A DNA stretch of 64,000 nt, taken from assembly GCA_945882095.1 (NCBI GenBank), contig CAMCWF010000001.1:124001-188000 (forward strand), given 5' to 3'. A program made the position numbers and the translations under genes. The notes under the pieces were generated by a model that did no database searches, was not told the origin of the DNA, and saw only the letters and a program-made list of their open reading frames with translations. Positions 14,668-19,492 of the stretch are shown here, piece after piece. This stretch comes from Chryseobacterium gleum. Its GTDB lineage: Bacteria > Bacteroidota > Bacteroidia > Flavobacteriales_D > Crocinitomicaceae. The first letter of the stretch is position 1. Each line of letters opens with the position of its first letter.

Positions 14668-15075
14668 TCAGTCGATGTTTTCTAAAATGGGACGTATGGC
14701 ATTGAAAAGAACTTCTTCATCCCAAGGTTTTGAGATAAAAGATTCCAACAAATTGTCTTTTTGAAGGGCATCTACGGAGACTGGATTTGCATGACCTGAG
14801 AGCATAACGCATTTAAGATTCGGATGCTTTTCTTTGATGGCACGAATCAATTGGGCTCCGGTCATCTTAGGCATTTGATAATCCACGATGATAAAAATGA
14901 TGTCAATTTTCTCTTCGACTAAATTGTCAATGTTCTCTAAAGCCTCAGAGGGATCGGTAAAGTATTCCAACAGGGTACATTTTTGATCAACAATTTTTGC
15001 AAGTTGGAAACCGAGCATTTGCAAAATATAGGGATCATCATCTACACAAACGACGGCATATTTTAATTCATACAT
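14668..15075 (-). CDS. Stand-alone response-regulator receiver
   Basis: A 135-residue receiver domain with no output domain. Acidic pocket residues lie at 12-14 (VDDD) and the phosphoacceptor is D65 (IIVDYQMPKMTG). The switch Ser is S93 (MLSGHA) and the conserved Lys is K116 (ISKPWD). It starts 12 bases after the large histidine kinase and is its natural phosphorylation partner. Without a DNA-binding or enzymatic domain it must act through protein contacts or pass phosphate onward. Confidence 0.93.
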   Translation of the reverse strand: MYELKYAVVCVDDDPYILQMLGFQLAKIVDQKCTLLEYFTDPSEALENIDNLVEEKIDIIFIIVDYQMPKMTGAQLIRAIKEKHPNLKCVMLSGHANPVSVDALQKDNLLESFISKPWDEEVLFNAIRPILENID

Positions 15076-15087
15076 GGCGTAAAGTTA

Positions 15088-18000
15088 CTATAATAATTCA
15101 ATCTCAACTTCATTTTTTGGAGGATGTGAATGGTCTGTTTTTTTGAAACGAACGTGAAAAGTTGTAAGCGAATCATCGGATTCTAGCGTTATTTTTGCAT
15201 TGTGCTCTTCCAAAACACTTCTTACGATGCTCAGACCCAAACCTGATCCGTTTTTCTTTGCCTTGGTAGTGTAGAACTTATCAAATATTTTTTCCTTGAT
15301 TTCATCTGGGATCTTTGGACCATTATTGGCTATCGATACGGTCACAAATCCATCGTTTTCTGCAGACGTAATTTTTATCATCCCTCGGTCTTTGTATTGG
15401 TCAAGGGATTCGATCGCATTCTTGATGATGTTTGACCAAAGTTGGAAAAGTTTGATGTCAAAACCCGACACAAAGTATGATTTATCGACATCAAAAATCA
15501 GTTCAACGTTCTTCTTAAGTTCATAATTGAATACATTCAAAACGGTAGATATGTTGCTATGTAAATTTACAGATGTCTTCTCACTGTTTCGTTGGTCTTT
15601 AATAAACGACCGAAGGTCTTGTACCACTTTAGACGCTCGGTCTGAGGATGTAAGAATGGTTTGTATGAAATTACGAACGATTTGCATGCTGTAAATAAGT
15701 TCGAGGTATTCCTTGGCGTTGGAAGCATTTAGGATTTCCTTGATAAATTCTTCCTGGCTTACATTGATACGGGTTTTCACGAGCATTGCGACCATTTTTG
15801 ATCGTTCGGAGTTCTCGAACTCGGGGTAAAGAACCAAAAGAAATTCATCCATTTCCTTCATTTCTCTACGTTGTTGTAAGCCTCCTACAAAGAGTTCACC
15901 TTGCAATTCGATGGCTCTGTTCATTGCTTTTTTTATCTGGCTTTCAGTACATTTCGCTACAATGTCATGAAACAAGTTGTCTAAGGTGTAGCGAATGCTT
16001 TCCGCACCAATCTTGATGGCACCGAGTGGGGTGTTTAGGTCATGGGCGATTCCAGAGGCAATCTCACCAATGGTTACCATTTTTTCTTGATCCGCCATGG
16101 ACTTCGTCAACGTTATGTTTCGGTTGATTTCTTCAGAAACCCTATTTTCAAGATCTGCGTTAATTTCTAAGATCTCGGCTTGAAGTTTTTCTTTTTGGCT
16201 TTGTTCATCAAGCGCTTGAATTTTTTGAGAAAGCATGTTCGCCACCGTCATCAATACCCTCACATGTAGGTCTGTGAAAAAGTTTTTTTGGTCGTTTTCT
16301 GAATCGATCACGCCCCATCGTTTTTTTCCAATGTTGATCGGGACGGCAACTTCTGATGCCCGATGAACACCGTCAGCAATGTACCTGCTGTCAAGGGAGG
16401 TGTCAGGAACCAACAAAGACTTACCGGTTTTAGCTACGGTTCCTACAATTCCTTTTCCGTAGGGAACGGTCATGCAATTTTTACATGGTCTTTTTCGCTT
16501 GTTTTTGTCCTCCGTAGCTGCAACCTTCACCAGGTCATTCCCTTCAAGCTTATAAATGATACAATCCTCAAAATCCAATTGGGAGACGATGTTTTCAACG
16601 ATATCCTCACAAATTGCTTGGTAATTGGTACCCGTTAGAAAGGAATCTGCCAATACATTTACGGTTTTTTCTGCTTGGATGATTTTTTCCAGTTCTTCGT
16701 TAATTGATTGGATTTTTCGATTGGATTTTTCGATTTCACGAATGTTTTTCATTCTCACATTGACATTCACCAACATTCGTGCATAGAGTTGGAGAAGGTC
16801 CTTTTCATCCTCATAAAACTTTCTTTGTTGCTTGACCGCATCGAAACCCACAAATCCCAAACAGACGTTTTCGTACATCAATGGCAACGCTATCAAACTT
16901 TTAATTTTTTGGGCGATGAGCATGGATTTTAAATCTCCCTCTGGTAGAAGCGCTGAGTTTTCAATTTCAATGTTTTTTCCTTGAAAGTGGGATTCTACCC
17001 ACATGGGGATTTGTTCAAAGGGAATCTTTTGTAAGTTATTAATTTCTTTTTGCACGCCTTCAGCCACCCACTCGTAGGTATTCGTTGCAAATTTTTCTTT
17101 GTGATTGTATTCAAAAACGTACACACGATCAACTTTTACAAAATTACCGATTTGACTCAAGGTACTGTCGATGGCTCCGGCGAGGTCATCGGGCTGCAGG
17201 TCGATGTATTCATTCGCAACACCCATCAAAATTGCTTGGAATTCATTTTTGTAGGCTAGGATGGTTTGGGCTAATTTTCTTTCTGTGATGTCCCTCGAAG
17301 CAGCGATGATGTACCCTTTCCCATCAATCACTTGGTAACGGAAGTTTACTTCCAAATCGACTGTTTCTCCTGTATTTTTGTTTACATTGATTGTTTCTGC
17401 TGTAACGCTTCCTTTGTCCCTCAGTTCCGTTAAGTGCGCTTGCCAAATGGCAGGGTCTTTAAATTTTGGATCTACATCAGAAACTTTATAACGCTGGATT
17501 TCATGCATAGGTATCCCCATTCTTTCCGATGCAGTATTGTTTATGTAGACAAAGTCTCCATTGTCATTGGCTACTTGTACCGCATCGCTGGTTGCGTTTA
17601 AAAATTGCTCTAAAAGCGCGAGTCTGACCTGGGATTTCCGAACAGATTCCTCGGCTAATTTTCGTTCAGTAATGTCAATGCCATAGCCAACGACATTCGT
17701 TTTTTTGTTGATTGGGTTGTGGACAGGCCGCATCCTACGCATCATTACCTGCCTTTTCCCGAGTGAATTTACAACGTCATCCTCCCATTCCACCTCCTCA
17801 TTGGTTTTCATGACCTCCAAGAATTTTGCACGTCTAAATTCGGCTGCTTTGGTGTCAACGCCTTTGAATTTACAATAATCGAAATCATCTTTACCAATGA
17901 TAAAATTTCGGATTTCCTCGTTTTTAATGCCTTGGGGATTTACGAAAAGATACCTGTGTTTGTCATCAAACACCGCAATGTCTGAGGGGATGTTGTTAAG

Positions 18001-18870
18001 GATGTATTCATAAAAGGCTTGTTGTTGGTCAAGTCTTTTGTTTAGCTTGGTTAATTCTCCTTCTTTTTCTTGAACTTGACTCACGAAGTGTGAGATGTTG
18101 GCGGCATAAATGTTATAAAAATCTGAGGACTTGGTATTTCGAATGTTCACCAAGTAGGTATTGTTATTTCTCGCCAAATACATCGAAAAGTTATCCAATT
18201 GATGGGTTTCGACATAGCTAAGGTTGAGTTTCAATTCATCATCATTCACCATGCTTTGTGTGATGTTGAAATCTTCCAAAAACTGAACAGCAGCAGGATT
18301 TGAATAGCGCAATTCAAACTTTTTACTTAAACGAAGTACAGGATTTGGGTTTTCATTTGGGAAAATTGCCGTAGACATCAATGCTTCTTGGCTTTCCAGA
18401 AGGGCTCTGTTTTTGTCCGTATACATTTCTGCAAGTCGGTTGGCATCCTCCAAGGATTTTGTTGAGGAATGAAGCAAGAACAAGTATTCTGAAATGTAAT
18501 CCTGGTTTGAGAAATCCTTTAAAGTCAGGTGATAACTTGAGATGTGAAAATTTGCGTTGATTACTGGCGCAGCATGCAGTACAAAACCCCATTTTGTTTT
18601 TCGACAAGCTGATTTAAAGCGTTGCTTCCCGTCCAAACTCTCAATAAAGACCAATGCATTTTTATCCGCATTCAAGGACACTATTGCATTTTTATGGGTC
18701 CACCTAAAAACCGAGTCAAAAGGAATTCCTTCATATAAAGTTGGAATCGACTTTAAAAATACCTTTCCGAATTTAAGAATTTCAAAGTTTTGACTTAAAA
18801 AAAGGGTGTGTGGCGCTGAGAATTCTAATGCTTCAAACAATTCATCCAATTCGAACGCAGCCTCTTTCAT
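15088..18870 (-). CDS. HNOBA-like/PAS/GAF sensor histidine kinase, partner of H-NOX
   Basis: A 1260-residue soluble kinase with no evident membrane span. The N-terminal 135 residues resemble HNOBA, the PAS-like domain that accompanies H-NOX in guanylyl cyclases and some kinases: HTLFLSQNFEILKFG, then SYHLTLKDFSNQDYISEYLF and a coiled coil. PAS domains follow at about 170-265, 300-405 and 415-530, then GAF domains at about 545-690 and 730-870. The phosphoacceptor is H943 in GIAHDLNTPL; an insertion separates it from the rest of the dimerisation region. The ATPase domain has N-box IIKNAIESL and GSGLGLSIV. It starts four bases after H-NOX. HNOBA assignment is by eye. Confidence 0.9.
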   Translation of the reverse strand: MKEAAFELDELFEALEFSAPHTLFLSQNFEILKFGKVFLKSIPTLYEGIPFDSVFRWTHKNAIVSLNADKNALVFIESLDGKQRFKSACRKTKWGFVLHAAPVINANFHISSYHLTLKDFSNQDYISEYLFLLHSSTKSLEDANRLAEMYTDKNRALLESQEALMSTAIFPNENPNPVLRLSKKFELRYSNPAAVQFLEDFNITQSMVNDDELKLNLSYVETHQLDNFSMYLARNNNTYLVNIRNTKSSDFYNIYAANISHFVSQVQEKEGELTKLNKRLDQQQAFYEYILNNIPSDIAVFDDKHRYLFVNPQGIKNEEIRNFIIGKDDFDYCKFKGVDTKAAEFRRAKFLEVMKTNEEVEWEDDVVNSLGKRQVMMRRMRPVHNPINKKTNVVGYGIDITERKLAEESVRKSQVRLALLEQFLNATSDAVQVANDNGDFVYINNTASERMGIPMHEIQRYKVSDVDPKFKDPAIWQAHLTELRDKGSVTAETINVNKNTGETVDLEVNFRYQVIDGKGYIIAASRDITERKLAQTILAYKNEFQAILMGVANEYIDLQPDDLAGAIDSTLSQIGNFVKVDRVYVFEYNHKEKFATNTYEWVAEGVQKEINNLQKIPFEQIPMWVESHFQGKNIEIENSALLPEGDLKSMLIAQKIKSLIALPLMYENVCLGFVGFDAVKQQRKFYEDEKDLLQLYARMLVNVNVRMKNIREIEKSNRKIQSINEELEKIIQAEKTVNVLADSFLTGTNYQAICEDIVENIVSQLDFEDCIIYKLEGNDLVKVAATEDKNKRKRPCKNCMTVPYGKGIVGTVAKTGKSLLVPDTSLDSRYIADGVHRASEVAVPINIGKKRWGVIDSENDQKNFFTDLHVRVLMTVANMLSQKIQALDEQSQKEKLQAEILEINADLENRVSEEINRNITLTKSMADQEKMVTIGEIASGIAHDLNTPLGAIKIGAESIRYTLDNLFHDIVAKCTESQIKKAMNRAIELQGELFVGGLQQRREMKEMDEFLLVLYPEFENSERSKMVAMLVKTRINVSQEEFIKEILNASNAKEYLELIYSMQIVRNFIQTILTSSDRASKVVQDLRSFIKDQRNSEKTSVNLHSNISTVLNVFNYELKKNVELIFDVDKSYFVSGFDIKLFQLWSNIIKNAIESLDQYKDRGMIKITSAENDGFVTVSIANNGPKIPDEIKEKIFDKFYTTKAKKNGSGLGLSIVRSVLEEHNAKITLESDDSLTTFHVRFKKTDHSHPPKNEVEIELL

Positions 18871-18873
18871 GGA

Positions 18874-19416
18874 TTACCAAGAAATTAAAAATACGTGACA
18901 GTCTCCGTTTTCTTCCATGAATTCGATTTGCTTCACTGTACATTCGATGCCGAATCTTTTTCCCAAACCTTTGATCAGTCCTAAAAGCATAGGCGTGAGT
19001 CCTGGTCTTTTGCTTCTGTACTCCAACTCCAATGATTGCTCCAATACATTCCTCGTCGTAAATTGAGGCGGTTCCAAATGTGGCATTATGCCACTGATTC
19101 GAAGGTGAAGCATGTCTAAATTCCCCAAAAATTCAGGGAAGGTATCTCCGGACAACTCCATAAGATAACCATATCCTTCTTCAGAAGTGTAGGTAATCCA
19201 ATATTCACCAAAGGCTTCTAAGATGTCGTTTGCATCTGCTGTAAGGATGCGTGACGCATGTTTAACCAAATCATAGGTCAATGAATCGGGATAGGCATTC
19301 ATACCTACAAAATCCCCTTCTTCAAAGCCAGTACTGGCACAGATTTCATTCCATTTTTCTTCTCCGTGGCGCGTAACCACCAAATCTTTGATCGCTTTGT
19401 TTACAAGTCCGTACAT
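18874..19416 (-). CDS. H-NOX heme nitric-oxide sensor (HNOB domain)
   Basis: A 180-residue stand-alone H-NOX protein beginning MYGLVNKAIKDLVV, the typical family start. The heme-ligand His is H104 in LDMLHLRISG, and the propionate-binding Y-x-S-x-R motif is Y133, S135, R137. The position matching the oxygen-binding Tyr140 of the Thermoanaerobacter protein is Pro142, so NO selectivity is expected. The ATG at 19416 was chosen because it starts the conserved domain and lies downstream of a TATCTTTG promoter element; the upstream in-frame codon at 19452 does not. In characterised systems NO-bound H-NOX controls an associated kinase. Confidence 0.94.
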   Translation of the reverse strand: MYGLVNKAIKDLVVTRHGEEKWNEICASTGFEEGDFVGMNAYPDSLTYDLVKHASRILTADANDILEAFGEYWITYTSEEGYGYLMELSGDTFPEFLGNLDMLHLRISGIMPHLEPPQFTTRNVLEQSLELEYRSKRPGLTPMLLGLIKGLGKRFGIECTVKQIEFMEENGDCHVFLISW

Positions 19417-19439: not shown

Positions 19440-19492
19440 CATAAAGCAACATATTCTCCTACCTAGAAAAATAGCAAGCATAAGAATATGCT

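Follow-up and report, generated by a model that had tools for sequence, protein, structure and literature searches.

Is the N-terminus of a soluble bacterial sensor kinase, encoded next to a stand-alone H-NOX protein, an HNOBA domain, and do the two proteins together resemble the regulatory half of the beta subunit of animal soluble guanylyl cyclase (sGC)? The question is raised by three consecutive open reading frames (ORFs) on the minus strand of a 64,000-nucleotide stretch of contig CAMCWF010000001.1 (the window), taken from an assembly labelled Chryseobacterium gleum (GCA_945882095.1). They encode a 180-residue H-NOX protein (18874..19416), a 1260-residue soluble sensor histidine kinase (15088..18870; HNOBA, PAS segments, two GAF domains, DHp and HATPase_c) and a 135-residue lone receiver (14668..15075); all features named below lie on the same strand. 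The three-gene operon was found where a preliminary description of this DNA had placed it. We consider it probable (about 0.75) that the operon is a cytosolic nitric oxide (NO)-sensing two-component unit, the front end of which is a two-protein version of the sGC beta regulatory half.

A divergent HNOBA domain at the kinase N-terminus

Residues 1-145 of the kinase (18436..18870), a PAS-like core followed by a C-terminal linker, do not reveal themselves as HNOBA when the window protein is taken by itself, and this weighs against the assignment. Pfam HNOBA was not matched in the whole kinase at E up to 0.1, nor in residues 1-145 alone at E up to 1, and the PDB yielded no HNOBA match when searched with this protein by itself. 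The domain also lacks the FPF and RP motifs, which vary little or not at all among the 14 canonical domains described below. A sulfatase, the sole PDB row for the window protein alone (E 0.033), was taken as chance.

The family to which the window protein belongs gives a different result. We aligned 43 kinase N-termini, including that of the window, from 66 loci of relatives of the window H-NOX (alignment A1). PF07701 was matched by 30 of the 43 at E up to 0.001 and by 38 at E up to 1 (best 3.1e-9), with the window row itself among those lacking a match. As a profile, A1 retrieved only 2P04 (E 0.0055) and 2P08 (E 0.0059) from the PDB at E up to 1. Compared by hhalign with a canonical HNOBA set (14 domains encoded beside other H-NOX genes, all Pfam-positive at 0.001), it aligned with a probability of 99.4 and E 1.7e-21. 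As controls we took five other segments of these kinases, three PAS and two GAF, and obtained probabilities of 35.1, 0.4, 0.1, 0.2 and 0.2; the value of 35.1 covers only 24 columns at the coil end, and no control matched domain-wide. The joint profile A4 found the beta and alpha chains of sGC and 2P04/2P08 in the PDB, with no other match at E up to 0.1. In the same search the conserved HNOBA tail, LtlnDFakhDyiaEyLf (kinase residues 113-133, 18472..18534), aligned to the PAS-coiled-coil linker of Manduca sGC beta (~329-347), the linker that contacts H-NOX in sGC. Conservation in A1 is concentrated in this part of the domain, as residues 102-145 hold four of the six invariant and six of the nine nearly invariant columns.

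An AlphaFold model of the kinase N-terminus (predicted local distance difference test (pLDDT) score 82.7, predicted template modelling (pTM) score 0.72, with tail blocks at pLDDT 66-70) agrees with the profiles. The first 21 Foldseek rows were all sGC or 2P04/2P08. VIA gave Z 15.1 to sGC beta1 206-368 (138 aligned residues, 3.5 A) and 12.6 to 2P08, with 10.7 for the best PAS domain outside this group. In the model, as in sGC, the PAS-like fold is extended by a C-terminal linker that leads into a coil. Thus, as judged from family Pfam matches, profile comparison, PDB profile matches and the predicted fold, residues 1-145 are a diverged HNOBA domain and not a generic PAS domain. The preliminary description had seen a likeness to HNOBA in residues 1-135, and this stands for residues 1-145; the profile check of residues 1-140 that it called for fails for the window protein alone and succeeds for the aligned family.

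H-NOX and its pairing with HNOBA

The window H-NOX matches PF07700 (HNOB) with E 1.9e-45. Its nearest solved relatives are the Nostoc Alr2278 structures, and against full-length human sGC beta1 it scores 102 bits, against the S. oneidensis protein 4u99 36 bits; it is of the sGC/Alr2278 type. His104 aligns with the His of Alr2278, and a YxSxR motif is present at 133-137; we take the former to be the position of the heme ligand and the latter to have its usual role.

The pairing of an HNOBA kinase with a stand-alone H-NOX is conserved. In the neighbourhood comparison a protein matching the HNOBA profile lies on the H-NOX strand in 62 of the 66 loci of relatives, and the remaining four are cut by contig ends. 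The layout departs from the usual in two cases: the HNOBA protein lies upstream in L084, and its frame is broken in L092. Because the query for the 66 loci was the H-NOX of the window itself, the set leans to near relatives. A sample of the phylum, in which HNOBA was counted only when the first part of the Pfam model was matched, gave H-NOX in 27 of 395 genomes (30 loci): 11 loci have HNOBA adjacent, 14 a kinase that starts with a coil, and five no kinase within 1.5 kb, the last two labels being assigned by reading the 1.5-kb flanks. Pfam HNOBA matches in this search that covered only model positions ~160-216 were read as coil matches. Another candidate, a weak second HNOBA match in the window's own genome (22.8 bits), lies in an ORF that does not resemble a kinase and was taken as chance. 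Across a sample of the order (299 genomes, 67 with H-NOX), H-NOX is found in 33 of 50 HNOBA genomes versus 34 of 249 others.

Partner type splits cleanly at one branch of an H-NOX tree of 93 rows (Shimodaira-Hasegawa-like approximate likelihood ratio test, SH-aLRT, 99). On one side are 71 HNOBA-partnered rows and three cut by contig ends; on the opposite side are 14 rows with coil kinases and five without a partner. The HNOBA-partnered rows come from Bacteroidota, Cyanobacteriota, Planctomycetota, Acidobacteriota, Pseudomonadota and Gemmatimonadota, and one genome (G254) has an H-NOX of each kind. This is a quick tree with long-branch warnings, from which the window (L001), L030 (H-NOX the same as that of L024) and the incomplete L076 and L096 were excluded. 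The loci (L) and genomes (G) used throughout overlap and are not independent sets.

Two observations were made in passing. The loci L009-L019, L023, L028 and L029 form a second class of H-NOX partner in Bacteroidota, a coil-start kinase, with their H-NOX in a separate clade. Six loci from metagenome-assembled genomes (L038, L039, L040, L043, L050 and L057) fall on the tree among loci of Flavobacteriales and of Crocinitomicaceae; their titles say Chryseobacterium gleum or Chitinophaga pinensis, names that may be wrong.

Natural losses within the genus

The genus of the window contains loci with and without H-NOX. From 86 genomes, 43 have a DHp-CA match, and 35 loci could be read through, one per genome. 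HNOBA is of full length in all 23 loci with H-NOX versus two of the 12 without (two of ten secure orthologues; Fisher p 3.6e-7, ignoring kinship). HNOBA was counted as full length when it scored above 60 bits with A4 and covered 120 or more model positions. This threshold is our own, and A4, having been built mostly from H-NOX-bearing loci, favours these. A PAS segment of the same kinase (residues 276-410, 17641..18045) served as control. All 23 loci with H-NOX retain it, as do ten of the 12 without; both misses are doubtful orthologues (ten of ten secure ones keep it). The two doubtful kinases (G646 and G726, loci L204 and L205) may be a different kinase, and results are therefore given with and without both. 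Whole-genome searches found no H-NOX elsewhere for the 12 H-NOX-less loci, at completeness of 59% to 99%.

The H-NOX-less loci differ in what remains. G628 has an 81-residue ORF, a remnant of H-NOX, before a full-length 1260-residue HNOBA kinase, and G630 has a full HNOBA and no H-NOX. A truncated HNOBA/PAS stub is kept and the tail is gone in G600, G610 and G692; by reading, G462 and G697 have a shorter kinase with a PAS-like stub. The missing stretch includes the HNOBA tail in all five. Also by reading, G690 and G678 keep the preceding GAF-like stretch and the following coil and have lost HNOBA, and the kinase of G730 begins at the coil. Flanking genes like those of the window (aldo/keto reductase, FAD oxidoreductase, dehydrogenase) are present in G628, G600, G610, G692, G462 and G697.

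Once kinship is considered the association is less firm. Independent contrasts on the DHp-CA tree gave seven pairs, of which five change in the same direction, none in the opposite direction and two not at all; the sign test (p 0.0625, whether or not the doubtful pair is counted) falls short of significance. Before G730 and G588 were included there were five pairs, three or four of them the same way (p 0.125-0.25). These figures count against too strong a conclusion, and we regard the genus pattern of HNOBA loss without H-NOX as suggestive, not conclusive. In a regression of HNOBA on DHp-CA identity versus nearest relatives, G600 and G610 stood at z of about -3 over 66 aligned columns, G628 at -0.4 and G630 at -0.3; these are too few events to lean on.

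Eight of the 43 genomes were dropped: G723, G664, G537, G602, G718 and G729 because the kinase or H-NOX region is cut by a contig end, G708 because the kinase is cut in DHp, and G715 because of a cut contig or unread bases. H-NOX is present in G708, G602, G537 and G718 and partial in G715, and none was found in G723, G664 and G729. G729 carries a complete HNOBA at the end of a contig and may add to the exceptions. In G571 both H-NOX and HNOBA are present, but DHp-CA is not matched.

Proposed mechanism

We propose that NO would bind the heme of H-NOX, with His104 as the predicted ligand. By analogy with sGC, the heme-ligand helix of H-NOX would then shift and act on the HNOBA PAS core and the PAS-to-coil linker. 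The coil would relay the signal through the PAS/GAF stack to DHp and so change autophosphorylation of His943, and the phosphoryl group would pass to Asp65 of the lone receiver, which may act by protein contact or hand the phosphate on. We leave the direction of the NO effect on the kinase, up or down, unpredicted.

Contact of H-NOX at an sGC-like linker is the best-supported but an unproven mechanism. The preliminary description had suggested direct H-NOX/HNOBA contact; the split in the H-NOX tree and the natural losses make this likelier, but structure prediction did not help. In a model of H-NOX and HNOBA as one fused (read-through) chain each domain folds well, and both domains of sGC beta are matched. 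However, the pTM of 0.56 and an overall root mean square deviation of ~20-23 A mean that the model gives no support for an sGC-like placement. Tentatively, and at somewhat short of even odds, we suggest that the separate H-NOX docks on the PAS-to-coiled-coil linker as in animal sGC. Within the genus, the linker and often the whole HNOBA would be kept by selection on account of H-NOX, and the linker would be deleted once H-NOX decays, while the rest of the kinase and the receiver stay. Lineages that have HNOBA and no H-NOX may use another sensor in the same socket, such as the nearby FIST protein of Flavobacterium-type loci.

HNOBA without H-NOX and alternative explanations

One objection to this proposal is that HNOBA occurs where H-NOX does not. 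Besides G628 and G630 of the window's own genus, where HNOBA survives without an intact H-NOX, this is so in six g220 genomes, in G569 and G491, and in the Flavobacterium-type genomes G154, G202 and G324. Across the order sample, 17 of the 50 HNOBA-positive genomes have no H-NOX match, although the HNOBA match is weak (E 3e-4 or worse) in three of the 17. The tail is intact in five aligned g220 genomes and was also seen in G154 and G202. HNOBA can therefore serve without H-NOX, and one may ask whether it mainly dimerizes and couples the kinase, with H-NOX acting elsewhere (for example on the DHp/ATP-binding region) and adjacency reflecting operon history. Coil kinases of Bacteroidota, which adjoin H-NOX and have no match to the HNOBA profile (nor to Pfam HNOBA in L011 and L016), point the same way. 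We nevertheless consider this unlikely, given that HNOBA-partnered and coil-partnered H-NOX lie on opposite sides of one well-supported branch (SH-aLRT 99), and that most H-NOX-less loci of the genus have lost or truncated HNOBA while retaining a neighbouring PAS domain.

The genus pattern could also have arisen if H-NOX and the HNOBA N-terminus had been gained together in some lineages, rather than HNOBA having been lost after H-NOX. H-NOX is patchy in both the phylum and the order samples, and the tree gives the number of changes and not their direction. We find a joint gain rather improbable, since the H-NOX remnant before a full HNOBA kinase in G628 and the truncated HNOBA stubs at the same syntenic place in G600, G610 and G692 favour loss there; even a joint gain would tie H-NOX to HNOBA.

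As to the ligand, the H-NOX of this operon might sense O2 or redox state in place of NO. O2-sensitive H-NOX domains occur in obligate anaerobes according to a passage of PMC8196705, and according to PMC7108781 a Vibrio H-NOX can respond to oxidation. Against this, the window protein, whose nearest solved relative is Alr2278, shares W73 with it, and its LTPMLLG stretch, aligned with LAPMVLG of Alr2278, is free of tyrosine. A pocket of the Alr2278 kind, having no tyrosine, would be expected to exclude O2, and we hold O2 or redox sensing to be improbable here. Finally, the idea that the first 145 residues form an ordinary PAS domain not specially related to HNOBA can appeal to the lack of a direct Pfam match and to a PAS fold for which many PAS chains reach Z 9-10 in VIA, but is scarcely credible given PF07701 in 30 of 43 family members, a profile-profile E of 1.7e-21 with no domain-wide match in the PAS/GAF controls, and sGC and 2P04/2P08 at the top of the structural lists with the post-PAS motif aligned to sGC.

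Several loci show further arrangements around HNOBA. In g220 (L181-L184, L193, L194) a protein of ~490-530 residues, GAF-like and then HNOBA, is followed by a receiver gene, with no genomic H-NOX match. Flavobacterium-type loci (L132, L134, L136, L138, L140) have H-NOX, an HNOBA kinase and a ~377-residue protein in one run with one or two further kinases, an Hpt-like protein and a response regulator. By Pfam the ~377-residue protein is FIST/FIST_C in the matching locus L129, as is the kinase-adjacent protein of G202; L127-L129 are related to the L132-L140 cluster and have no H-NOX. In the L132-L140 clusters a single phosphorelay may serve two candidate NO sensors. The window genome has a single H-NOX, and a genome search found no FIST match in it.

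Relation to known systems

HNOBA in a bacterial kinase, which the preliminary description had treated as a surprise, is largely known. Passages of PMC2904703 place H-NOXA (HNOBA) in bacterial homologues (citing Iyer 2003) and mention the crystallized PAS domain of a Nostoc punctiforme kinase (citing Ma 2008), which passages of PMC2828450 and PMC8196705 describe as a model for sGC. The kind is thus in print. The last, a structural review, calls the role of the sGC PAS domains in signalling ambiguous, and a review of cyclic diguanylate signalling counts HNOB proteins among the auxiliary sensors that serve two-component systems (PMC8846402).

The closest likeness is to the Nostoc punctiforme kinase (2P04, 2P08), a histidine kinase with HNOBA and the first PDB match of both A1 and A4. 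Compared with its PAS domain alone, the window HNOBA is diverged and lacks FPF and RP; the window kinase further has PAS and GAF domains and a lone receiver encoded next to it. The Nostoc kinase gene presumably adjoins an H-NOX gene, and in another member of the Nostocales, Cylindrospermum (L086), H-NOX is followed directly by an HNOBA protein. The window, with a separate H-NOX gene beside an HNOBA kinase, has the same split unit. With sGC beta1 (6JT0 and others) the window shares H-NOX, HNOBA/PAS and linker helix, and both parts are related in sequence and fold; sGC is one chain with a cyclase, whereas the window encodes two separate proteins with a kinase output. The Shewanella HnoX/HnoK/HnoB system is similar in joining a stand-alone H-NOX with a histidine kinase and a receiver, as set out in a passage of PMC8846402. 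The window H-NOX is much nearer to sGC beta1 (102 bits) than to S. oneidensis 4u99 (36 bits). HnoK, we assume, has no HNOBA. The coil/PAS kinases of Bacteroidota (L009-L019, L023, L028, L029) share the phylum and the order H-NOX then kinase, but they have an N-terminal coil, no match to the HNOBA profile and an H-NOX in the opposite clade.

Literature searches on HNOBA, on Bacteroidetes/Flavobacteria H-NOX and on H-NOX with FIST/NosP, which covered titles and abstract openings with subscription journals mostly outside, returned no account of this operon. New here are a diverged HNOBA clade (with the window protein missed by Pfam), a conserved operon with a lone receiver, the partner split in the H-NOX tree and the natural losses, and the comparative evidence that H-NOX and HNOBA belong together is the contribution. 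As sensor and HNOBA are on separate small proteins, contact and switching are directly measurable, and what the linker does can be tested by comparing the natural variants of the genus (with H-NOX, with decayed H-NOX or with cut HNOBA), several of which share one chromosomal location.

Operon layout, kinase and receiver

H-NOX and kinase are separated by 3 bases (18871-18873), one fewer than the preliminary description had counted, and kinase and receiver by 12, as it had stated. H-NOX begins with the ATG at 19416 (MYG, the same start as in relatives); the ORF as listed has an alternative start at 19452. An in-frame arrangement in which one codon separates the H-NOX stop from the kinase ATG was considered as a special feature and set aside, since the frames agree in 22 of 73 loci, the chance expectation.

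Pfam matches GAF in two stretches of the kinase, PAS families and HATPase_c (7.8e-21); HisKA is at 18.8 bits, under its cut-off of 26.9. No cyclase family appears in the Pfam result for the kinase, the catalytic match being HATPase_c. The DHp and ATP-binding region (residues 906-1260, 15091..16155) has an H box with His943, an N-box at 1147 and a G box at 1208. The receiver matches Response_reg (E 4e-17) with Asp65, Ser93 and Lys116, and no output domain was found in its 135 residues. The predicted acceptor His and ATP-binding domain of the kinase and the acceptor Asp of the receiver are those of a two-component pair. The highest 19-residue hydropathy mean of the kinase is 1.49, so no membrane span is expected. 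The earlier picture of a soluble kinase of 1260 residues and a receiver without output thus holds, as do its two GAF domains. Its three PAS domains are less certain: the best Pfam PAS stretches are at ~419-532, and those at ~276-410 and ~141-275 were read from alignments of relatives, with no separate curated match.

The HisKA match spans 28 residues only (935-962), and the second part of DHp apparently comes late, as if ~100 residues were inserted (15496-16023, residues ~950-1125); PDB matches of the kinase start only from about residue 1050 or later. In five loci (L213, L221, L227, L228 and L229) the HNOBA kinase and its receiver precede another kinase with another lone receiver, after which, where the contig reaches, comes the dehydrogenase gene; the arrangement is possibly a duplicated phosphorelay.

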